Origin: Acidithiobacillus thiooxidans ATCC 19377
GTDB lineage: Bacteria; Pseudomonadota; Gammaproteobacteria; Acidithiobacillales; Acidithiobacillaceae
Assembly (NCBI RefSeq): GCF_009662475.1
Contig: NZ_CP045571.1
Coordinates: forward strand, 866,501-930,500
Length of the DNA stretch: 64,000 nt
Direction: 5' to 3'
Below are positions 1 through 12,584 of this stretch, piece by piece; within the stretch, counting starts at the first letter, position 1; each line of letters begins with the position of its first letter. The position numbers and the translations under genes were made by a program. Under the pieces are notes generated by a model. The model saw only the letters and a list, made by a program, of their open reading frames with translations, had not been told where the DNA came from and ran no database searches.

Positions 1-374
1 ACCTGGTCTGGATCGCCACCGTCTGCGGCAAGCTGAAAACCGACTTCCGCTACTCCAACACTCTCGGCTGGAACACCTTCCCGGTGCCGACGCTGACCGA
101 GAAAAACAAGGCCGATCTCACCCGCTGCGCCGAGGACATCCTGCTGGCGCGGGAGCATCACTTTCCGGCGACCATCGCCGATCTGTACGCCCCCGACAAG
201 ATGCCCGATGATCTGCGCGCCGCCCATGACCGCAACGACGAAGTGCTGGAGCGTATCTACATTGGTCGCCGCTTCAAGAACGACACCGAGCGGCTGGAAA
301 AGCTGTTTGACCTCTACGCCAAGATGACCGCTGCGACCACGATCAAGAAGTGTAAGGCGGTGGCTAGGCCGTGA
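1..374 (+). CDS. MmeI-like DNA methyltransferase, C-terminal fragment
   Basis: The gene enters from the left edge (first full codon at 3) and stops at 374. The visible 123 residues contain the block FRYSNTLGWNTFPVP followed by a helical tail with LADLY-like (IADLYAPDKMP) and ERLEKLFDLYAKM segments. This is the usual end of large class I SAM-dependent methyltransferases of the MmeI/type IIG kind, where the region follows the target-recognition domain. The catalytic N-terminus (SAM-binding and NPPY motifs) lies outside the window, so methylation activity is inferred from family. Its TGA overlaps the GTG start of the next gene (GTGA), so the two are translationally coupled. Expected role: modification of host DNA within the four-gene restriction-like operon 1-4390. 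Confidence 0.75.
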   Translation, partial: LVWIATVCGKLKTDFRYSNTLGWNTFPVPTLTEKNKADLTRCAEDILLAREHHFPATIADLYAPDKMPDDLRAAHDRNDEVLERIYIGRRFKNDTERLEKLFDLYAKMTAATTIKKCKAVARP

Positions 375-1147
375 ACGTATTGTTCCAAATGTGGGGGCCA
401 TTTCGGGAATCTCTGATTAAAACTCATTTGTTTTATGTCGAACAAGCGAGGAAACGCTTGCTTTCGCAGTTCGATAGTATTGATGCTGACGCTGATCGTG
501 CCGCCGATGAATGGCTAGAGCGAAGCGCTCAATACTTTGATCCAGATCGGGATGATCCTGGAGGTTTCTATGAAACGACCAACGATGTCGCCATTGAGTT
601 CTACGGACTCTTGAGCGATATGCGCGAGCAGACACGTTTGAGTGTCGTAGCCGGAATGTTCCATGAGTGGGACAAGCAGCTTCGCGGCTGGCTGGTGCGT
701 GAGATTCACTACTGGCATCAAGGCGACAAAGCTGCTTCGGAGGTCTGGAAGGTCGATTTCGACAAAATCGTCGATTTGCTGGAAAGCTTAAGCTGGAATA
801 TTCGCAATACAGATTACTTCCGTACGCTTAATGCGTGCCGTCTTGTGGTTAATGTCTACAAACATGGCAAAGGAAACTCCCTCCGTGATCTATGGGATAA
901 CTTTCCTGAATATCTTGACGATTCGTTCAAAGGCTACAGCAGAACTTGGATGGACACAAAATATCGTGATCACACTCATCTTAAAGTGAGCGACGATCAG
1001 TTTCAGGCGTTCTCGGCGGCGATCTTGGCTTTCTGGCGCGAAGTTCCCGAAAATGCCGATAAATCTCAAGTAACCAATGTGCCGGACTGGTTTGACAGGG
1101 CCATTTTGAAGGACCAAGCCGAACTACAACAGACGAGCAAGAAATGA
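371..1147 (+). CDS. Unrecognised 258-residue protein in methyltransferase-helicase operon
   Basis: A soluble 258-residue protein starting with GTG that overlaps the methyltransferase stop, and ending in ATGA shared with the helicase start. I do not recognise the family. It is rich in aromatic and charged residues, has no signal peptide or membrane segment and looks largely helical. A block LNACRLVVNVYKHGKGN near residue 155 resembles the R..N..KHG.G pattern seen in some HEPN-like or abortive-infection proteins, but the spacing between R and H is not the canonical HEPN one, so this is only a hint. Its base composition is visibly more AT-rich than both neighbours. Position inside the operon implies it works with the methyltransferase, helicase and nuclease. 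Confidence 0.75.
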   Translation: MNVLFQMWGPFRESLIKTHLFYVEQARKRLLSQFDSIDADADRAADEWLERSAQYFDPDRDDPGGFYETTNDVAIEFYGLLSDMREQTRLSVVAGMFHEWDKQLRGWLVREIHYWHQGDKAASEVWKVDFDKIVDLLESLSWNIRNTDYFRTLNACRLVVNVYKHGKGNSLRDLWDNFPEYLDDSFKGYSRTWMDTKYRDHTHLKVSDDQFQAFSAAILAFWREVPENADKSQVTNVPDWFDRAILKDQAELQQTSKK

Positions 1148-3228
1148 CCCATAGCGCCCATAAATCCATCCCCTCCGTCTCCGTCACCTACGCCCGTAAC
1201 GGCGCGTCGACCAAGGCCAATGCGCTGGGGATGCGGCCCATGCAGGAAAGGGCCTTTGAAAAGCGTGGCGAGCAATACCTGCTCATCAAGTCGCCACCCG
1301 CATCGGGCAAAAGCCGTGCACTGATGTTCGTCGCGCTCGACAAGCTGGCGAACCAAGGCTTGAAGCAGGCCATTATCGTCGTGCCGGAAAAGACCATTGG
1401 GGCCAGCTTCAACGATGAGCCGCTGTCGAAATACGGCTTCTGGGCGGACTGGCAGGTCGAACCCAAGTGGAACCTGTGCAACGCTCCGGGTAATGACAAT
1501 GGCGGCAAGGTAAAGTCTCTTGGTGCATTCCTTAAAGGCGACGACAAGGTGCTGGTCTGCACCCACGCCACCTTCCGTTTCGCGGTCGATACCTATGGGG
1601 TAGAGGCGTTCGACGACCGCCTGATCGCGGTCGATGAGTTCCACCATGTTTCGGCCAACCCGGACAATAAGCTCGGCTTGCACCTTGGGCAGTTCTTCGC
1701 GCGGGGGAAAACGCACATCCTCGCCATGACCGGCTCCTATTTCCGGGGCGATGCCGAGGCCGTGCTGGCGCCGCAGGACGAGTCGAAATTCGATACCGTC
1801 ACCTATACCTACTACGAGCAACTCAACGGTTATCAATACCTCAAGCAACTCGACATCGGCTACTTCTTCTACAGTGGGGCTTATGTCGATGACATCCTCA
1901 AAGTTCTCGATCCCGCCGAGAAGACCATTATCCACATTCCCAACGTCAATTCGCGCGAGAGCACGAAGGACAAGGTACGCGAGGTGGAACACATCATCGA
2001 GGCGCTTGGGGAGTGGCAAGGCATCGACCCTGCGACCGGCTTCCAGCTTGTCAAGCGGCCCCCAGGTGGTCCAGATGCTGGCCGCGTACTGCGGATCGCT
2101 GATCTCGTCGATGACGACGCCACGAGGCGCGACCGCGTGTCCGCCGCACTCAAAGACCCCGCGCAGAAGAATAACCGCAACCATGTGGACATCATCATCG
2201 CGCTGGGCATGGCGAAAGAAGGCTTCGATTGGATTTGGTGCGAACACGCGCTGACCGTGGGTTACCGCGCCAGCCTGACCGAGATCGTGCAGATTATCGG
2301 CCGAGCGACCCGCGACGCACCTGGCAAGACCCGCGCAAGGTTCAGCAACCTGATCGCCGAACCGGATGCGGCTGGGGAAGCGGTCACTGAGGCCGTCAAC
2401 GATACTTTGAAGGCCATCGCGGCCAGTCTGCTGATGGAACAGGTGCTTGCGCCGCGTTTTGAGTTCAAGCCCAAGAATCCGGACAATACCCCCACACCGG
2501 GTTTCAACTACGGCGAGGGTGGCTACGACCCGGACCGCTGCAATGTCGGTGTCAACGAGCAGACAGGGACGTTCCAAATCGAAATCAAGGGGATCGCCGA
2601 GCCCAAGAGCAAGGAGGCGACCAGAATCTGTCATGAGGACCTTAACGAAGTCATCGCGGCCTTTGTGCAGGACAAACCCGCCCTCGAGCGCGGTCTGTTT
2701 GACGAGGAACTGGTGCCCGAGGAGCTAACGCTGGTTCGCATGGGCAAGATCATTAAGGGCAAGTATCCTGAGCTTGACGCCGAAGATCAGGAGGCAGTGC
2801 GCCAGCACGCTATTGCCGCGCTCAATCTCACGCAGCAGGCCAAGCGGGTGGTCACCGAAGGCCAAAGCGTGAGCGACAGCGGTGGATCGCCCAATACTGG
2901 CCTGATCGACGGTGTGCGCCGCTTCGCAATGGACGTTCGCGACCTGGACATTGACCTGATCGACCGCATCAATCCTTTCGGCGAAGCCTATGCCATCCTT
3001 GCCAAGGCTATGAGTGAGGACAGCTTGAAGCAAGTCGCGGCGACGATCACCGCCAAACGCACGAGTCTGACGCCAGAGGAAGCCAAAGATCTGGCCGTTC
3101 GGGCGGTTCAGTTCAAAAAGGAACGCGGCCGCATTCCGGCGCTTAATTCTCAGGATGCCTGGGAACGACGTATGGCAGAAGGCGCGACGGCTTTCATGCG
3201 TTTCAAGGCAGAAGGACGCTATGAGTAA
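1144..3228 (+). CDS. DEAD/DEAH-type superfamily 2 helicase
   Basis: A 694-residue SF2 ATPase. Visible motifs: Walker A SPPASGKS at about residues 50-57, Walker B VDEFHH at about 163-168, motif III-like MTGSY near 200, and the C-terminal RecA lobe with GMAKEGFDW and motif VI QIIGRATRD near 380-390. The last 250 residues match nothing I recognise and no nuclease motif is seen there. It resembles the helicase subunit of type III-like restriction enzymes and likely drives DNA translocation for the GIY-YIG nuclease encoded next. The start ATG overlaps the preceding stop (ATGA) and the end overlaps the next start, so the operon is translated as one coupled unit. An antisense reading frame of 522 codons covers much of this gene and is considered spurious. 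Confidence 0.85.
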   Translation: MTHSAHKSIPSVSVTYARNGASTKANALGMRPMQERAFEKRGEQYLLIKSPPASGKSRALMFVALDKLANQGLKQAIIVVPEKTIGASFNDEPLSKYGFWADWQVEPKWNLCNAPGNDNGGKVKSLGAFLKGDDKVLVCTHATFRFAVDTYGVEAFDDRLIAVDEFHHVSANPDNKLGLHLGQFFARGKTHILAMTGSYFRGDAEAVLAPQDESKFDTVTYTYYEQLNGYQYLKQLDIGYFFYSGAYVDDILKVLDPAEKTIIHIPNVNSRESTKDKVREVEHIIEALGEWQGIDPATGFQLVKRPPGGPDAGRVLRIADLVDDDATRRDRVSAALKDPAQKNNRNHVDIIIALGMAKEGFDWIWCEHALTVGYRASLTEIVQIIGRATRDAPGKTRARFSNLIAEPDAAGEAVTEAVNDTLKAIAASLLMEQVLAPRFEFKPKNPDNTPTPGFNYGEGGYDPDRCNVGVNEQTGTFQIEIKGIAEPKSKEATRICHEDLNEVIAAFVQDKPALERGLFDEELVPEELTLVRMGKIIKGKYPELDAEDQEAVRQHAIAALNLTQQAKRVVTEGQSVSDSGGSPNTGLIDGVRRFAMDVRDLDIDLIDRINPFGEAYAILAKAMSEDSLKQVAATITAKRTSLTPEEAKDLAVRAVQFKKERGRIPALNSQDAWERRMAEGATAFMRFKAEGRYE

Positions 3229-4390
3229 TTCTGATCTTAACGATCTGGCTGCAGAGCTTGCTGATTTCGCACCGCCCGAGAAGAAGGGCGGCCGGTCGGC
3301 AATTGAGGAGCGCGTCATCGCGGGCTTCAAGGATATCCAACGCTTCACCGAGAAGCACGGCCATACGCCGCAGCATGGTGAAGACCGCGATATCTTCGAG
3401 CGTCTCTACGCCGTACGTCTGGACCGTTTGCGCGCGCTCCCGGACTTCAGCACCCTGCTGGAGCCGCTGGACTATCAGAACTTACTATCTGCTGATCCGG
3501 CAGAGGAAACTATCGACATCGACGACCTGGCCTCCGAGCTGGCGGGCGTAGCCGACGGGGGCGATATTACGGTCCTACGTCATGTCCGCACCAGCGCCGA
3601 AAAGCGCGCCGCCGAGGCGATCGCCGAACGCAAGCCATGCGAAGACTTTGAGACCTTCAAGCCACTATTTGGGGGCGTGCAAGCCGACCTCAAGACGGGC
3701 CTGCGTCAGGCCCAGCTCATCAAAGCCGGCCGCCGCGCGATTGATGCTGGAGACTTTTTCGTGCTCGATGGTCTCACGCTCTTCGTCGCAGAGGTCGGTG
3801 AACCGCTGAAAACCACCGCCCGGGAAGTGGATCGCCGCTTGCGCGTCATCTACTCCAACGGTACCGAGAGCAATATGCTGCTGCGCTCGCTCCAGCGCGC
3901 CTTTTATGACGATCCCGCTGCACGGCGGCTAGCCTCGCCCGAAAGTGGGCAACTCTCTTTCGGTGACGAGCTTGAGGCCGATGATGTTGAAAGCGGCACG
4001 ATCTATGTTCTGCGTTCTAAATCTGACCATCCCTATGTGGCACAGCACCGCGATCTGATCCACAAGATCGGCGTGACGGGGGGCAAGGTGGAGACGCGTA
4101 TCGCCAACGCGGAAAACGATGCGACCTACCTGCTGGCTAAAGTTGAGGTGGTGGCGACCTACAAGCTCGCGGGCATTAACCGCACCCGGATGGAGAACCT
4201 GTTCCACAGGCTGTTCGCACCCGCACGATTGAATATCACCATCAACGACCGCTTCGGTCATCCTGTGCAGCCTGAGGAATGGTTTCTTATCCCGCTGTTC
4301 GTCATCGACGAGGCCGTCGTGCGCATCAAGGATGGCAGCATTACCGGCTACTTCTACGATCCCAGCGCAGCGAAGTTGGTGAAAGGATAG
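3221..4390 (+). CDS. GIY-YIG nuclease (T5orf172/Mug113-type domain)
   Basis: A 389-residue protein starting at the ATG inside ATGAGTAA, which overlaps the helicase stop; longer in-frame starts exist but lie inside the helicase. Residues 1-250 have no recognisable domain. From about residue 257 it reads SGTIYVLRSKS, then HKIGVTGG, an arginine in ETRIANAEND and RMENLFHRLF, matching the GIY...YIG(KIG), R and E elements of the T5orf172 branch of GIY-YIG nucleases. In this operon it is the only candidate for the DNA-cutting subunit. Restriction of unmodified phage or plasmid DNA is an inference from the methyltransferase and helicase partners. Confidence 0.8.
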   Translation: MSNSDLNDLAAELADFAPPEKKGGRSAIEERVIAGFKDIQRFTEKHGHTPQHGEDRDIFERLYAVRLDRLRALPDFSTLLEPLDYQNLLSADPAEETIDIDDLASELAGVADGGDITVLRHVRTSAEKRAAEAIAERKPCEDFETFKPLFGGVQADLKTGLRQAQLIKAGRRAIDAGDFFVLDGLTLFVAEVGEPLKTTAREVDRRLRVIYSNGTESNMLLRSLQRAFYDDPAARRLASPESGQLSFGDELEADDVESGTIYVLRSKSDHPYVAQHRDLIHKIGVTGGKVETRIANAENDATYLLAKVEVVATYKLAGINRTRMENLFHRLFAPARLNITINDRFGHPVQPEEWFLIPLFVIDEAVVRIKDGSITGYFYDPSAAKLVKG

Positions 4391-4604: not shown

Positions 4605-6154
4605 GAGCTTGTCGGACTTTCCCTTTGCGTCGAATTATCATATAATTACTTATAATTCAATGTGATGAGTGATTTCATGGCCCACTTCCTCGATACTAAC
4701 CGCAAGACCGATTATCTTCTGCCCCCCTCCATGGACGACTGGCTCCCGGAAGGGCACCTGGCGCGATTTATTGTGGAAGTCATTGATCAGCTTGATCTCT
4801 CGTTACTGGTCCAACAATATGCAGGTCGTGGCCATAAGGCCTATCACCCGGCCACCCTCCTGGCGATTCTGGTCTACGGCTATGCCAACGGGGTCTTTCC
4901 CAGCCGTAAACTGGAACAAGCCACCTATGATTCCGTGGCTTTCCGTTACCTCGCGGCCGGCAGCCATCCGGATCACGATACCCTGGCCACCTTCCGTCGC
5001 CGTTTTCTGGGCGAACTGCAAGGATTGTTCGTGCAGGTCCTGGAACTGGCACAGGAGATGAAACTGCTGAAGATCGGCCGGGTGTGTCTGGATGGCACCA
5101 AGATCCACGCCAACGCTTCCAAACATCAAGCCCTGTCCCATGGGCATATCGAACAGATGGAGCGTCATCTCCAGGCCGAAGTACAGGAACTCTTTGCACT
5201 GGCAGAACAGGCGGATCAGTCCGGGTTTCCCGAAGGCGTGAATCTGCCCGAAGAGATCCAGCGCCGAGAAGACCGGTTGGCCGTGATGGCAGCGGCCAAG
5301 GCGAAGATTGCCGAGCGGGCACAGGCCCGTTATGCCAAAGAGAAAGCGCAGTACGACACGCAAATGGCGCGCCGTGCAGAACGGGAAGCCCTGGGACAAA
5401 AGCCCCGAGGCAAAGCCCCCCAGGCATCGGACCCGGCGCCTAAAGCGCAAGACCAGATCAATCTCACCGATGAAGAATCCCGCATCATGCCGGTCTCAGG
5501 CGGTGGCTTTGAACAAACCTATAATGCCCAGGCCGCCGTAGATGACCAGACAATGCTGGTGGTAGCCACCGGAGTCAGTCAGGCCCCCAATGACAAGGAA
5601 CAGGTCATCCCCATGCTGAAAACCCTCCAGGCACAAACAGCGCAACTGGGGCCCATAGAAGCGCTGGTAGCCGATACGGGTTACTGCAGCGAAAAGAATG
5701 TGGAGGCCTGCGAAGCGCTGGGGATTACCCCATTCATTGCCGTGGCCCGAGAAGAACACCATCCCGACTGGCGGCAACGGCATACAGAACCGGAAGACCT
5801 CCCTGAAAATGCAACCCGCATGCAGGCGATGATACATCGTCTGAAGACGCAGGCAGGCCGAAGCGTTTACCGTCTGCGCAAACAAACGGTAGAACCGGTC
5901 TTCGGGATTATCAAATCGGTGATGGGATTCCGGCAGTTCTCCTTGCGCGGCCTGCGTCAGGTTCAAGGAGAATGGAGTCTGGTCTGCCTGGCGTGGAACA
6001 TAAAACGCATGGCCGTATTGCGTCTGTAGGGCAGGAAAATGCAGATAAACCGCAAAAAACAGGGCAATAATGACCAAAAAAGACTCAAAACGAGTGATTT
6101 CAAAAAATTCGGGGCGAAATCTGGCAGTAGTCCGAAGTTAAAACCGACGGGCTG
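4605..6154 (+). mobile_element. IS1182-family insertion sequence
   Basis: About 1,550 bp bounded by imperfect terminal inverted repeats (left GAGCTTGTCGGACTTT; right end read inward CAGCCCGTCGGTTTTA) and flanked on both sides by CTAG (4601-4604 and 6155-6158), which looks like a 4-bp target duplication. It carries one intact transposase. If CTAG belongs to the element, the ends move outward by four bases. Confidence 0.75.
4665..6029 (+). CDS. IS1182-family transposase
   Basis: A full-length transposase of about 454 residues with the IS1182-family N-terminus (RKTDYLLPPSMDDWLPEGHLARF). Candidate DDE residues are in LDGTKIHANAS, VADTGYCSEKN and EPVFGIIKSVMGFRQFSLRG. A charged helical insert separates the first and second acidic residues, as is usual in this family. 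GTG at 4662 and ATG at 4677 are alternative starts; no strong ribosome-binding site decides between them. The frame is intact, so the element could be active. Confidence 0.85.
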   Translation: MSDFMAHFLDTNRKTDYLLPPSMDDWLPEGHLARFIVEVIDQLDLSLLVQQYAGRGHKAYHPATLLAILVYGYANGVFPSRKLEQATYDSVAFRYLAAGSHPDHDTLATFRRRFLGELQGLFVQVLELAQEMKLLKIGRVCLDGTKIHANASKHQALSHGHIEQMERHLQAEVQELFALAEQADQSGFPEGVNLPEEIQRREDRLAVMAAAKAKIAERAQARYAKEKAQYDTQMARRAEREALGQKPRGKAPQASDPAPKAQDQINLTDEESRIMPVSGGGFEQTYNAQAAVDDQTMLVVATGVSQAPNDKEQVIPMLKTLQAQTAQLGPIEALVADTGYCSEKNVEACEALGITPFIAVAREEHHPDWRQRHTEPEDLPENATRMQAMIHRLKTQAGRSVYRLRKQTVEPVFGIIKSVMGFRQFSLRGLRQVQGEWSLVCLAWNIKRMAVLRL

Positions 6155-6617: not shown

Positions 6618-7667
6618 TCAGCGCAGGTCGTACCAGACGCCTCGGCCACTGCCGTGCTGGTTCAGCGTGCCGTGCTCCACCAACACCCGGAAATGCTGCT
6701 TCAGCGTGTTGCGGCTGGCCCCGGTCAGCTTGATGGCCTCGCCAATGGTGACGCGGCCGTGTTCGCGGGTGAACTCGACGATCTGTAGCTGCAGTTCCGG
6801 CATGGTCGCCAGCACGATCTTCTCATGCTCGACTTTTTTCTCCAGGCGCCGAACCTGCTCGGCCAGGGAGCGCAGGAAGAACAACAGCCACGGCTGCCAG
6901 TTCGGTGCCTCGGTGCGGATCGTGCCCTGTGTCTGCCGCAAGGCCAGGTAGTACGCTTCCTTGCTCTGCTCGATCACACTCTCCAACGAGCTGTACGGCA
7001 CATAGGCGTAGCCGGCCTGCAGGAGCAGCAGCGTGGTCAACACCCGGGAGAGTCGCCCGTTGCCGTCCTGGAATGGATGGATCGCCAGGAACACGACGAT
7101 GTATAAGGCGATGATCAGCAGTGGATGCAGACTGGCAGACTCCCGCTCCTGGTTTACCCAGACCATTAGCTCCGTCATCAGCCGAGGTGTATCGAAGGGT
7201 GACGCTGTTTGGAACACGATGCCGATCTGCGCGCCGGTTTCGTCGAAGGCAGCGACGCTGTTCGGGTTGGTCTTGTACTGGCCCCGATGCCAGGTGTCCT
7301 TCTCACTGTAGCGCAAGAGGATCTGGTGCAACTGTTTGATGTGGTTTTCGGTGAATGGTATGTCCTGCCACGACGAGAACACCAGGTCCATCAGCTCGGC
7401 GTAGCCCGCCACTTCCTGCTCGTCGCGTGAGGCGAAGGACTGGATCTCCAGGTTCGACAGCAGCCGCTCCACTTCCCGGTCGGACAGTCTGCTGCCTTCG
7501 ATGCGGGTGGACGAGCCGATGCTCTCGATGGTGGCTACCCGGCGCAGGGCCGACAGGCGGTCGGGCGCAAGTGTGCCCAAGGCGCGCCAGGCACCTTTGA
7601 ACTCATCGATCCTGGCGATGAGCCTCAGGATCTCCGGGGTGATCTGAATGGTGTCGATTTTCAACAT
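6618..7667 (-). CDS. Fic-domain protein with C-terminal winged helix
   Basis: A 349-residue Fic protein, predicted to transfer AMP (or another nucleotide part) to target proteins. The catalytic motif HPFQDGNGR (residues 197-205) is complete. An N-terminal inhibitory-helix motif of the S-x-x-x-E-G type is present (STRIEG, residues 53-58), placing it among the self-inhibited class II-like Fic proteins. The last 70 residues form a winged helix-turn-helix (TIGEAIKLTGASRNTLKQHF). I chose ATG 7667 because the product then begins with the usual MLKIDTIQIT N-terminus; the longer form from 7745 would run back through the repeated 10-mers upstream. No partner antitoxin is adjacent, and inhibition is built in. 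The target is unknown. Confidence 0.85.
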   Translation of the reverse strand: MLKIDTIQITPEILRLIARIDEFKGAWRALGTLAPDRLSALRRVATIESIGSSTRIEGSRLSDREVERLLSNLEIQSFASRDEQEVAGYAELMDLVFSSWQDIPFTENHIKQLHQILLRYSEKDTWHRGQYKTNPNSVAAFDETGAQIGIVFQTASPFDTPRLMTELMVWVNQERESASLHPLLIIALYIVVFLAIHPFQDGNGRLSRVLTTLLLLQAGYAYVPYSSLESVIEQSKEAYYLALRQTQGTIRTEAPNWQPWLLFFLRSLAEQVRRLEKKVEHEKIVLATMPELQLQIVEFTREHGRVTIGEAIKLTGASRNTLKQHFRVLVEHGTLNQHGSGRGVWYDLR

Positions 7668-7677
7668 GAACCAATAA

Positions 7678-7697
7678 TACACCCATTTACACCCATT
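7678..7697. repeat. Two tandem TACACCCATT 10-mers upstream of fic
   Basis: Two perfect head-to-tail copies of TACACCCATT lie 11 bp upstream of the preferred fic start codon. The one-turn repeat length and location suggest a regulator-binding site. The sequence resembles but does not match the TACCC-type palindromes downstream of fic. Confidence 0.4.
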
Positions 7698-7849
7698 CTG
7701 AAGTAGGTGCGAGATTCTGGGGAATGACGGGCCTATTTGCCGCAAGGAGTGCTGGGAATAAAGCTCTGCGGAGAGATTGCTCCGGTTTGAGCCTGATCCC
7801 TGTTTTTCTCCTTGAAACGCTATATTAGAAAACTTCCTGGAGATATGTC

Positions 7850-8761
7850 ATGGTAACCTTCAAACGCGTCGGTTTAACGCTCGCCCTGCTCACGGCCTTG
7901 GCCAGCCTCAGTTATTCTGGGGCGGCTACCACTTATGTTTTCCGGCAGACCCTTCCCGGTAATCCGGTACCTTCCTGTAGTGAGCCCGGGAGTAAAAGCT
8001 TTACCACGCCTGGGGTGTATCAGGTAACCGTTCCAGCCGGCTGTGAGATAGCTGCAGTCTTAGCCGGAGCAGGTGGCGGTAATCCTACGGATGCCGACTT
8101 AGGGGGCGGTCCTGGCGGTTCAGTCTCTTTCAACCTGGTGTCGTCAGGATCTCCCCTAACCGTAGTGGTCGGGACTGCCGGCCAGATCGCCTACCCTTCT
8201 TCAGAATATTCAGGCGGGAATGGCGGCGGTTACAGTTTAGTGGCCTCAGGTAATGCCATTTGGGGTGTGGCCGGAGGCGGTGGTGGTGCAGCAGGTAATG
8301 GCGGCGGAAGCGGTCTTGCCTATTCCGAAGGTGGATCCGGAGGCAACCCGGGGATGAACGGTGAGATCGCACCGGTTGACTACGGTAGCTGTCAGGACGA
8401 AGGAACCGGGGCCACGGATCTTCAGGCCGGAACCGATGGGGAGCTATGCCCAGAGGTCAATACGGGGGTTCCTACCTACATATCCGTAGCCCCGGCGGGT
8501 TCAGCAGCACTGTCCAGCACCTTTTCCGATGACAGCGGAGGCATTGCTGCTTCCGAGGGTAATAATGGAAACGGTGGCGGTGGTGGAGGCGGTGGCGGCT
8601 ACTACGGCGGAGGCTACGGCTCGGACGGGGGAGACTACGACGAAGGTGGTGGCGGAGGAGGGGGATCAAGCTATGTGACACCTGAAGCGACGAATGTGAC
8701 TGAAACTACCGGCGGAGGATCTCCGACTGAGACGAATGGATCAGTTTCATTGTCCTGGTAA
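7850..8761 (+). CDS. Exported glycine-rich protein
   Basis: A 303-residue protein with a signal peptide (hydrophobic core LTLALLTALASLSY, probable cleavage after YSGA). The mature part starts with a beta-rich block (FTTPGVYQVTVPAGCEIAAVLAGAGGG, summarised by its FTTPG and VTVPAG elements) and then has long glycine runs with low sequence complexity, ending GGGGSSYVTPEATNV...NGSVSLSW. This layout matches secreted glycine-rich domain proteins found in bacteria and phages whose function is mostly structural or adhesive. Four cysteines are present in the mature part. The ribosome-binding site CTGGAG precedes the ATG. It sits alone between fic and the toxin remnant, within accessory DNA. A function cannot be assigned beyond a probable envelope or extracellular location. 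Confidence 0.75.
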   Translation: MVTFKRVGLTLALLTALASLSYSGAATTYVFRQTLPGNPVPSCSEPGSKSFTTPGVYQVTVPAGCEIAAVLAGAGGGNPTDADLGGGPGGSVSFNLVSSGSPLTVVVGTAGQIAYPSSEYSGGNGGGYSLVASGNAIWGVAGGGGGAAGNGGGSGLAYSEGGSGGNPGMNGEIAPVDYGSCQDEGTGATDLQAGTDGELCPEVNTGVPTYISVAPAGSAALSSTFSDDSGGIAASEGNNGNGGGGGGGGGYYGGGYGSDGGDYDEGGGGGGGSSYVTPEATNVTETTGGGSPTETNGSVSLSW

Positions 8762-9422: not shown

Positions 9423-10586
9423 GTGTAGTGTTGCATTCTTGGTGAACCTTAAGGTTAATGATGATAAAATAGCTCCATGTTGAGGGTATGAATGGAGTCG
9501 AGCCTTGCGAGTTGCGCCCACAGTCATTTTAACCAGCGAAGAGCTGTCCGAGTTGTCCCGTATAGTCGCCTCCCGATTAAGCAGTGTCCGCTTGTCATTA
9601 CGGGCACGGATGATATTGCTGGCGGCAGAGGGCTTGCAGAACAAAGAAATTGCGGAGCGCCTGGGGGTGGATCGCCTGCAAGTCGCACGTTGGCGCAAGC
9701 GTTATCTGGAACACCGCTTGTCGGGCATTGAACGCGATTTAACGCGCGGCGCCCCTCCGGTGAAAGTGGATGTGGCCCGCCTGGTAGAATTGACCACGCA
9801 GAGTAAGCCGGAAGCGATGACGCATTGGAGTACGCGCAGGATGGCGGCAGAACTGGGTGTCAGTGCCGCCAGTGTGTCGCGGCATTGGCGCAAGCATGGC
9901 CTTAAGCCCCATCTGCTGCGTGGTTTCAAAGTGTCACGTGATCCGCATTTTGTGGAAAAGCTGGAAGATATTGTGGGGTTGTATATGTCTCCCCCGGAGC
10001 ATGCCTTGGTGCTCTGCGTGGATGAAAAAAGTCAGGTGCAGGCCCTGGACCGGACCCAACCGGGACTTCCCCTCAAAAAGGGCCGCGCAGAAACGATGAC
10101 CCACGACTACAAACGTAATGGTACTACGACCTTGTTTGCCGCACTCAACGTGCTGGATGGTCAGGTCATCGGACAGTGTCAACAGCGCCATACCCATGTG
10201 GAATGGCTGAAGTTCCTGAAGAAAATTGATCGGCAGACGCCCAGGGACAAGGCTCTGCATCTGATTGCCGACAACTATGCGACCCATAAACACCCGGTAG
10301 TACAGGCGTGGCTCGACAAGCACCCGCGTATTCACATGCACTTCACGCCCACTTCGGCATCCTGGCTCAACATGGTCGAGCGTTTCTTTCGGGATATGAC
10401 GACCCAGCGGTTACGTCGTGGGGTGTTCACCAGGTCTCCGAACTCATCCAGGCCATTGAGGGGTACATCGACCACCACAACACCCGTCCCAAACCCTTCA
10501 TCTGGACCAAAACCGCCCGCGACATCCTGCAAAAGGTCATTCGCGCCAACAGCCACTTAAGCAGCAAAAAGAATGCAACACTACAC
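9423..10586 (+). mobile_element. IS630-family insertion sequence
   Basis: An element of about 1,164 bp with perfect terminal inverted repeats GTGTAGTGTTGCATTCTT (left) and the complement at the right end, flanked by TA on both sides (9421-9422, 10587-10588). TA duplication is the hallmark of IS630/Tc1-type elements. The transposase has a frameshift. Confidence 0.85.
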
Positions 10587-11140: not shown

Positions 11141-12334
11141 TTATTTTTCTTTATCATGTCTAAGTTGATCCAAATAATCTGACCATGCTTGCATCATCAC
11201 CCGCCTTCCTTCCATGTGCGACGTCCTGTTGTAGGCCCGTCCGTTCGGATCTTTTACGGCGTGCGCGAGCTGGTGTTCAATCCAGTCAACTCGAAAGTTC
11301 AGGACTTCGTCTAGTACTGTTCTGGCCATAGCCCGGAAACCGTGTGCGGTGATATCTTCCTTAGTTGAGTAGCCCATTCTGCGTAAGGCTTGGTTAATGG
11401 TGTTATTGGAAATTGGCTTATTGGTATTTCGACCTTGGAAGACGTATTCGCATTTGCCAGTAAGAGGCTTTAATTCCGTAAGAATGCCTAAAGACTGAGT
11501 CGACAAAGGTACCATATGAGGTTGTTTCATCTTCATACGTTCAGCGGGTAGGTTCCACACTTTTGCCTCAAGGTCAAACTCCTTCCATTGGGCTAAACGC
11601 ATTTCGGACGGGCGCAAGAACACGTGTGGAGCTAACCTCAAGGCGCTTTGAACCTCAAACGATCCCTTGTACGAATATAGGTCCCGGAGCAGTACGGCGA
11701 TCTTCTTAGGATCGGTGATGCTTGGAAAATGTGCGGGTTTCCAAGGTGTTAACGCTCCTTTAAGGTCGCCTGTAATATCTCTGTTTGCTCGCCCAGTAGC
11801 TACAGCATATCGGAATACTTGTCCGCAGTTCTGCAGCACGCGATGCGCAGTTTCTATAGCCCTTGCTTCGGTCCGTCTGAGTACGGTCAGTAGTTCGGCC
11901 GGCTGGATCTCGGAGATAGGCCGAGTCCCTAACCACGGAAAAATCTCGCGCTCCAATCTCCGCATGATTTTATTGGAGTGAGATTTAGCCCAGCCCAGAC
12001 GCTGTTTCTCGAACCATTCCCTGGCGACGATTTCAAAGCTGCCCAGCCCTGCCTCCGTTAGAGCCAGTTTACTGGCCTTACGATGAGCGCTTGGGTCTGC
12101 GCCCGTTGCAAGTAATCGTCGAGCGTCGTCACGTCTCTCCCGGGCCATGGCTAGGGTAACATCTGGATAGACACCTAGTGATAGCCGTTTTTCTTTACCG
12201 TCTACCCGAAACTTCAGTCGCCACCACTTCCCTCCGGCAGGGGCAATCTCTAGGTAGAGCCCCTTTTCATCAGATAATTTGTATGACTTCTCCTTAGGCT
12301 TAGACTGCCGGATTTTAGTATCAGTCAAGGACAT
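11141..12334 (-). CDS. P4-type tyrosine recombinase (island integrase)
   Basis: A 397-residue integrase with the N-terminal arm-binding domain of the DUF4102 type (SLTDTKIRQSKPKEKSYKL, KWWRLKFRVDGKEKRLSLG), a core-binding domain and a catalytic domain. Catalytic residues visible: R in FLRPSEMRL (about 241), HGFR (331-334), H in QLAHAV (358) and Y in GRAYNRTSH (368). It integrates DNA by site-specific recombination, typically into a tRNA 3' end. The ATG at 12334 follows a GGAG site; a TTG nine bases upstream would extend it by three residues. The tRNA-Ala 3' end is 175 bp upstream, so the attachment site is probably there. Confidence 0.9.
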   Translation of the reverse strand: MSLTDTKIRQSKPKEKSYKLSDEKGLYLEIAPAGGKWWRLKFRVDGKEKRLSLGVYPDVTLAMARERRDDARRLLATGADPSAHRKASKLALTEAGLGSFEIVAREWFEKQRLGWAKSHSNKIMRRLEREIFPWLGTRPISEIQPAELLTVLRRTEARAIETAHRVLQNCGQVFRYAVATGRANRDITGDLKGALTPWKPAHFPSITDPKKIAVLLRDLYSYKGSFEVQSALRLAPHVFLRPSEMRLAQWKEFDLEAKVWNLPAERMKMKQPHMVPLSTQSLGILTELKPLTGKCEYVFQGRNTNKPISNNTINQALRRMGYSTKEDITAHGFRAMARTVLDEVLNFRVDWIEHQLAHAVKDPNGRAYNRTSHMEGRRVMMQAWSDYLDQLRHDKEK

Positions 12335-12386
12335 TGGGGGCAACTCCGAATAGGCTTATCTTGGTTGCCCCCAATGTTGCCCCCAG
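12333..12386. promoter_or_regulatory. Inverted and direct repeats over the integrase start codon
   Basis: ATTGGGGGCAAC (12333-12344) covers the integrase start codon and is perfectly inverted in GTTGCCCCCAAT (12364-12375), which is followed at once by GTTGCCCCCAG (12376-12386). The arrangement can hide the integrase start in an RNA hairpin or act as protein-binding arm sites controlling integrase expression. Confidence 0.6.
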
Positions 12387-12432
12387 TCACCCCGAGATGG
12401 CAAGCGATATCTTGAGATGTTGTGAGACGAAG

Positions 12433-12466
12433 AAAAAGCCACTAATCATATAAATCAGTGGCTTTT
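12433..12466 (-). terminator. Rho-independent terminator after tRNA-Ala
   Basis: An 11-bp near-perfect stem AAAAGCCACT / AGTGGCTTTTT with a 13-nt loop. Read on the minus strand it ends in TTTTTCTT, correct for ending the tRNA-Ala transcript before the integrase. Confidence 0.65.
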
Positions 12467-12508
12467 ATGGTGGTTTGATGCGAGCTGAGACGTAGTGAGA
12501 TAGTTAAT

Positions 12509-12584
<76 letters not shown>

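Follow-up and report, generated by a model that had tools for sequence, protein, structure and literature searches.

A guest gene between the methyltransferase and helicase of a DnmA-YeeB-YeeC-like operon in Acidithiobacillus thiooxidans

The 64,000-nucleotide stretch of Acidithiobacillus thiooxidans ATCC 19377 analyzed here (the window; contig NZ_CP045571.1, positions 866,501 to 930,500), part of a 3.42-Mb genome on a single contig, opens with one operon of four genes joined by three overlapping junctions. By sequence, three of these genes are the already published core set DnmA(YeeA)-YeeB-YeeC, and the fourth, P0002, which represents an undescribed protein family, is a guest in an accessory slot between methyltransferase and helicase and not a core subunit. 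On balance, we consider it probable that the operon works as a restriction-modification system of the DnmA-YeeB-YeeC kind and that the guest in this slot is an effector. The P0002 family and the guest slot are new as far as our literature search goes.

Operon layout and the three-gene core

The first gene, encoding a DnmA/YeeA-like N6-adenine methyltransferase of the MmeI family with its own target recognition domain, enters the window with its 3' end only (1-374, forward strand). Reading 10 kb leftwards of this truncation recovered the complete gene, as the earlier note on this DNA had advised: it starts with TTG, encodes 924 amino acids and runs from window position -2400 to 374 (L002:7600-10374). 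On the same strand follow P0002 (371-1147; 258 amino acids, with an all-helical model), a YeeB-like superfamily 2 (SF2) helicase with intact motor motifs (1144-3228; 694 amino acids) and a YeeC-like GIY-YIG nuclease with a T5orf172 domain at its C-terminus (3221-4390; 389 amino acids). By frame reading, the methyltransferase stop and the P0002 start overlap in GTGA at 371-374; P0002 and helicase share ATGA at 1144-1147, and helicase and nuclease share ATGAGTAA at 3221-3228. The frames and overlaps of all four genes were undamaged, which bears out the four genes and three overlapping junctions that the note had described.

We compared this arrangement with P0002 loci from species genomes, taking the best 80 of 93 confirmed stretches from a pattern-based scan, a sample rather than a census. 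Methyltransferase and helicase flanked P0002 in 50 of these 80 loci, all four genes being present in 48, so that similar clusters do exist elsewhere, as the note had stated. The helicase-nuclease spacing, read from open frames at all loci, was exactly -8 in 75 of 100 cases and exceeded 150 in four. Since the same order recurs in 50 of 80 species loci and the 8-base overlap is exact in 75 of 100, the four-gene arrangement exceeds chance. One of the four wide spacings belongs to a same-family relative (L161) whose YeeB frame is split in two; some core copies are therefore broken.

The methyltransferase matched all five MmeI Pfam domains and aligned with the solved MmeI structure (5hr4) at E 1.7e-141. 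Its target recognition domain lies inside the protein and is not a separate subunit, and among 81 length-filtered homologues both FDPACGSGNF (motif I) and NPP were kept at ≥97%. We take the nuclease motif of MmeI to be D70-x9-E80-x-K82. At this position the protein shows D50-x9-I60-x-I62, a placement obtained by extending the 20-residue offset of the 5hr4 alignment, which begins at residue 89, leftwards. Any [DE]xK within residues 30-110 was found in only 12 of the 81 homologues, and the methyltransferase's own nuclease motif is thus, by sequence, lost here and through the subfamily. PADLOC labeled the protein REase_MTase_IIG at 931 bits. Because the ExK motif that a one-chain nuclease carries appears lost, we rejected assignment to the self-cutting type IIG/IIL enzymes; BREX and DISARM were likewise rejected, as the PglX and DrmMI models matched weakly (≤64 bits, versus 931 for IIG). 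With all four operon proteins scanned, the other three drew just PbeA at 19 bits and PDC-S57 at 13 bits. The PADLOC check that the note had proposed thus labeled the methyltransferase and gave no match to P0002.

The helicase was assigned to SF2 (Pfam DEAD at 26.5 bits, against a cut-off of 26), and its P-loop GKS, DEFHH and QIIGRxTR were kept at ≥97% among 97 length-filtered homologues. The nuclease was placed in T5orf172/MUG113 by family search, with Y262, G284, R293 and E325 kept at ≥97% among 98 length-filtered homologues. The catalytic motifs of the core therefore look intact, and family searches confirmed the note's MmeI-like methyltransferase, SF2 helicase and separate T5orf172-type nuclease; its reading that this nuclease replaces the usual PD-(D/E)XK domain in cutting appears right as well.

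According to extracts of two reports (PMC7261158, PMC9973331), DnmA of Bacillus subtilis recognizes a short asymmetric site, GACGAG, and makes N6-methyladenine there, and the DnmA-YeeB-YeeC set is termed type I-like. The operon described here shares with that set an MmeI-family methyltransferase without a nuclease motif, an SF2 helicase, a T5orf172 nuclease and the gene order, a likeness that rests on published descriptions and not on direct protein sequence comparison; it differs in the fourth gene that separates methyltransferase from helicase, whereas the B. subtilis genes are described as adjacent. From type I systems (HsdMSR) it differs in having no separate HsdS and in that the nuclease is a separate GIY-YIG protein, not the PD-(D/E)XK domain of HsdR. 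The note had not recognized the four-part set as a named system; this holds for the P0002 family, which is undescribed, but not for the other three genes.

The slot between DnmA and YeeB

To avoid looking only where P0002 occurs, we anchored the sampling of the junction on YeeB. At a threshold of E 1e-30, YeeB was found in 23 of 398 and 6 of 40 genomes, and at E 1e-100 in 12 of 369 and 17 of 385; these samples overlap, and the own genome is counted in the first three. Altogether, 51 other YeeB places were retrieved, 49 of them with a methyltransferase upstream (L163 and L165, whose retrieved piece holds no methyltransferase, were left out of the slot counts). Defining an insert as more than 150 bp between the two genes of a junction, we found one between methyltransferase and helicase in 26 of the 38 loci with YeeB at ≥60% identity and none in 12, while P0002 was present in a single locus of the 38. 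Among the 11 loci with YeeB below 60% identity, 10 had no insert and 1 had one. The helicase-nuclease junction of the same loci, used as a control with the same method, held inserts in 2 of 37 (L171, 734 bp; L179, 165 bp) and 0 of 11 loci, respectively (L174, where the contig ends, was left out). Since the inserts vary at this junction and P0002 occurs in 1 of 38 loci, P0002 occupies an accessory slot as a guest. We therefore rejected an obligate four-protein complex, given that P0002 is absent from 37 of 38 close YeeB operons.

The guests themselves, identified directly with Pfam or through blastp similarity to a representative that Pfam had named, were diverse. RhuM and YhcG were each found in five loci (one YhcG partial), PDDEXK_4, SLFN_AlbA_2 and HTH-M78 in two loci each, and AAA_15, YafQ and BrnT in one locus each; PADLOC named two guests, PDC-S26 and PDC-S67. 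In total, 17 of the 26 inserts contained a guest named by Pfam, PADLOC or similarity, and one contained P0002. Toxin, nuclease or candidate-defence families account for most of the named guests (counted at the slot alone), and all 31 of the 31 family-assigned guest open reading frames (ORFs) run in the operon direction, a figure that is partly circular, as the families were chosen from forward ORFs. Beside P0002 in its own operons we found Fic, Zeta, ParE and an Abi_2-type protein; the last fell just under the Pfam cut-off and matched the PADLOC model PD-T4-5 (its row from L048 was dropped because of a stop within its coordinates). Within the same genus, SLFN_AlbA_2 occupied the slot in place of P0002 at a YeeB identity of 91-92%. 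Close plasmid copies from Klebsiella and Agrobacterium had no guest, and upstream of a Paraburkholderia copy lay an IS5 transposase, with no methyltransferase annotated there.

Further slot ORFs were judged by eye: a phospholipase-D-like guest (L160, scanned, no match), a PIN-like ORF (L161) and a RelE-like ORF in the slot of L174, with no PADLOC match. A 276-amino-acid guest family with an FRNYIHP stretch, HEPN-like by eye, was seen at L146:895-1722 and L167:6390-7217; the L146 copy had no Pfam or PADLOC match and the L167 copy shares its slot with P0002.

Our literature search on the slot turned up the core and the type I/PrrC analogues but no description of guests between DnmA and YeeB; in an extract of PMC9973331, an uncharacterised family close to dnmA is named as a possible part of the locus. 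The "stable multi-protein system" of the earlier note thus holds for the three core genes and not for all four; the neighbourhood check that it had proposed did show that the four genes co-occur elsewhere, with P0002 as an exchangeable and not a fixed member.

The P0002 family and its predicted fold

P0002 had no match in Pfam, NCBIfam or PADLOC; a search of PDB sequences returned one hit (E 1.8, nothing useful), and tblastn against INPHARED phages gave none at E 0.01. Its sole PHROGs match was phrog_19541, a family with no assigned function, across residues 4-247 at 222 bits. Thirteen residues were invariant in 61 P0002 sequences: F21, F34, H98, K102, R105, W126, N161, K164, H165, G166, G168, F221 and W222.

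In the 50 species loci with an operon, P0002 mostly followed the methyltransferase at less than 100 bp (47/50), and more than 100 bp separated it from the helicase in 29. These loci came from Alphaproteobacteria (31), Gammaproteobacteria (12), Betaproteobacteria (4), another proteobacterial lineage (1), Nitrospirota (1) and Verrucomicrobiota (1). One Verrucomicrobiota locus had a large methyltransferase-like gene (L071:6396-9278; 960 amino acids, by eye) between DnmA and P0002. In a Roseobacter/Paracoccus-type group (L022, L028-L030, L033, L034 and L048), P0002 and the Abi_2/PD-T4-5-like protein accompanied a divergent core with YeeB at 47-48% identity; P0002 therefore occurs with two distant core versions.

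P0002 also occurs without the core. No core gene was found at E 1e-8 on the retrieved stretch in 29 of the 80 species loci, some of them near contig ends, and a further locus on a short contig (L067), outside the 50, kept the methyltransferase. The core was likewise absent from the retrieved stretch in 20 of 20 viral-contig loci, some on short contigs. Relatives were present in 126 plasmid records; among seven plasmid neighbourhoods opened, one (Sinorhizobium americanum) had the same four-gene order and in six the core was not found. On a quick tree of 98 P0002 sequences (excluding the short fragment L109, duplicates and rows below 180 amino acids), in which the tool flags long branches, 14 switches of context (operon or solo) were needed, at least four of them forced by well-supported branches, compared with 33 on average for shuffled labels.

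We also looked for partners of solo P0002, taking up to three ORFs of ≥90 amino acids per side at 52 solo loci (L088, L089 and L109 were left out). A RES-domain family recurred in L092 and in L098-L100, three loci that resemble one another, and three Pseudomonas loci (L054, 14250-15539; L055; L062) shared a PRTase-CE family; one or two members of each were scanned for these assignments (the L054 copy for PRTase-CE). The RES-domain proteins, on four viral contigs, lie within 4.5 kb of solo P0002 (for example, L092:6070-7335 and L098:12067-13527, reverse strand) and showed a weak HEPN/RES match at the N-terminus. The remaining recurrent neighbours each came from a single set of three related loci (plasmid, genome or phage).

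AlphaFold gave confident all-helical models for P0002 (predicted local distance difference test, pLDDT, 94.5) and for a relative at 35% identity (pLDDT 93.4). Foldseek against PDB and BFVD found nothing at E≤0.001; the best BFVD row was an uncharacterised myovirus protein (E 0.029, probability 0.98). With VIA-align, the top rows for P0002 were 5yep_B (Z 8.6, root-mean-square deviation [rmsd] 3.9, 130 aligned) and 7bxo_G (Z 8.0, rmsd 4.0, 129 aligned), and the next row was at 6.0. Both are chains of HepT/MntA-type complexes, taken from their chain length to be the HEPN toxin; in the first of these two pairs, the HEPN toxin is SO_3166 (PMC4621449, extract). For the 35%-identity relative, HEPN proteins made up 4 of 50 rows: Csm6 at Z 6.0 (rmsd 4.5, 128 aligned), 5.6 and 4.7, and 3jrt, an integron HEPN protein, at Z 4.1. 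In place of the canonical Rx4-6H, P0002 has an invariant NxxKHGxG, with N161-H165 at the end of core helix 148-165 and R157 in 45 of 61 sequences at spacing 7. According to extracts of the literature, Rx4-6H likewise ends the core helix in HepT (PMC4621449), and some accepted HEPN families also have no Rx4-6H (PMC3710099).

Several observations weigh against a HEPN assignment. Unrelated rows of similar or higher Z stood beside the HEPN rows, an ABC transporter coming first for the relative's model, and HepT was not among the rows listed for that model. Rx4-6H itself was found in just 1 of 61 P0002 rows, and a profile comparison of P0002 with the Abi_2-type slot protein gave a probability of 1% and no link. 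P0002 also differs from HEPN toxins such as HepT SO_3166 and Csm6 in its length of about 250 amino acids and in having no nucleotidyltransferase partner in the operon. Since Z values of this size can arise between unrelated helical bundles, we treat the likeness as a lead, and since Rx4-6H is missing, we do not claim HEPN membership; the P0002 model weakly resembles HEPN ribonucleases.

Proposed mechanism, rival explanations and genomic surroundings

In the restriction-modification reading that we favor, DnmA would recognize and methylate a short asymmetric site, as published for the B. subtilis protein, its motifs being intact here. Because DnmA's own nuclease site appears lost, cutting would be handed to YeeB and YeeC: YeeB may move along unmethylated DNA in an ATP-driven manner, as HsdR does, and YeeC would cut with its GIY-YIG domain. 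On this view P0002 is one guest among several that can take each other's place, many of which belong to toxin, nuclease or abortive-infection families. Its most likely role is that of a second-line effector, and it may be an RNA-acting protein with a HEPN-like fold. Like PrrC in EcoprrI, it would be held inactive in normal cells until infection, or loss of the restriction complex, sets it off. According to extracts of PMC3710099 and PMC12707154, the PrrC gene sits inside a type Ic operon that keeps PrrC silent, and T4 Stp releases PrrC from this control; PMC3710099, also in extract, ties RhuM and Fic/Doc genes to such type I operons. The likeness lies in an accessory gene embedded in a restriction operon, with RhuM and Fic/Doc beside such systems. 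In contrast to EcoprrI-PrrC, the core here is of another type than HsdMSR, and P0002 lacks an ABC ATPase part, its ribonuclease activity being putative. A bolder version is possible but doubtful: the operon might represent a restriction system distinct from both type I and IIG, a third kind, whose slot is a docking site for interchangeable suicide or nuclease effectors controlled by the restriction complex, with P0002 founding a new effector family, RNA-acting and HEPN-like, with a non-canonical N-x2-K-H active site, that also works alone from prophages and plasmids.

Some results speak against the favored reading. In extracts of PMC9973331 and PMC7261158, the B. subtilis set had no effect on three phages and loss of dnmA left plasmid uptake unchanged. 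L171, with 734 bp between helicase and nuclease, stands alone among the YeeB-anchored loci in having a clear insert there, 6 of the 26 slot inserts hold unnamed ORFs alone and 2 (L142, L182) have no recognisable gene. Solo P0002 has no general partner, no family occurring in more than 4 of the 52 solo loci; guarding by the restriction complex therefore cannot be needed everywhere, which argues that P0002 can also regulate itself or answer another trigger.

It seems rather unlikely to us that the guests, P0002 included, are mobile passengers, passive or selfish, that a permissive junction tolerates and that have no link to restriction. The repeated switching of P0002 between operon and solo context would fit such a passenger, as would its relatives on plasmids (core in 1 of 7 opened) and on 20 viral contigs. 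However, inserts crowd one junction (26/38) and avoid the next (2/37), the family-assigned guests all share the operon direction (with the circularity given above), most named guests belong to toxin, nuclease or candidate-defence families, and the start/stop overlaps are retained in the window and in many relatives. We hold it unlikely that the cluster is a relic, with DnmA left as an orphan methyltransferase and restriction by the helicase, nuclease and P0002 lost. The B. subtilis results (PMC9973331, PMC7261158) point that way, but motor and nuclease motifs are intact here and across relatives, frames and overlaps are undamaged, and Vibrio crassostreae homologues are reported, as cited in an extract of PMC9973331, to protect against some phage groups.

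Also unlikely, in our judgment, is a role of P0002 as structural or regulatory subunit of the restriction complex, the four genes forming one obligate system. Overlapping junctions on both sides of P0002, its place directly behind the methyltransferase in 47 of 50 operon loci and the recurrence of the association in Alpha-, Gamma- and Betaproteobacteria, Nitrospirota and Verrucomicrobiota could all be expected of a subunit. Yet 37 of 38 close operons do without P0002, 12 of them without any insert, unrelated genes replace it in the slot, and at 29 of 80 species loci, as at all 20 viral-contig loci (some on short contigs), it stands without the core on the retrieved stretch. An ordinary self-cutting type IIG/IIL enzyme with unrelated neighbours would explain the PADLOC label at 931 bits but is scarcely credible, as the ExK motif appears lost through the subfamily and the neighbour genes are conserved with the methyltransferase. 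The restriction or defence role that the earlier note had proposed is, in our view, probable.

The note had also placed the operon in an integrase-bearing island. A tyrosine integrase gene does lie next to tRNA-Ala(cgc) (11141-12343, reverse strand; region 11141-12584), although no attachment repeat of the tRNA-end region of ≥15 bp that would bound an island was found in 60 kb leftwards, only two 13-bp matches. Directly upstream of the methyltransferase and divergent from it is a DUF5906/D5-like helicase of phage or satellite type (L002:5536-7281, reverse strand; window -4464 to -2719), which together with the integrase suggests an integrative element. Downstream of the operon, Pfam identified two DDE transposases, DDE_Tnp_1 (4662-6029) and DDE_3 (9505-10560). 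Between them, about 2 kb downstream of the operon and outside the slot, is a Fic-domain gene (6618-7745, reverse strand; Pfam Fic, 65 bits); a glycine-rich 303-amino-acid ORF with a signal-like N-terminus is found at 7850-8761 (forward strand).

The DnmA-YeeB-YeeC set is silent in B. subtilis and reported protective in a Vibrio, and a slot for exchangeable effectors, if true, could help explain this difference in phenotype between strains. The DnmA-YeeB junction would then provide a rule for finding new single-gene defence effectors, and the PrrC principle, in which a backup weapon is armed by restriction failure, would be extended to another restriction architecture.

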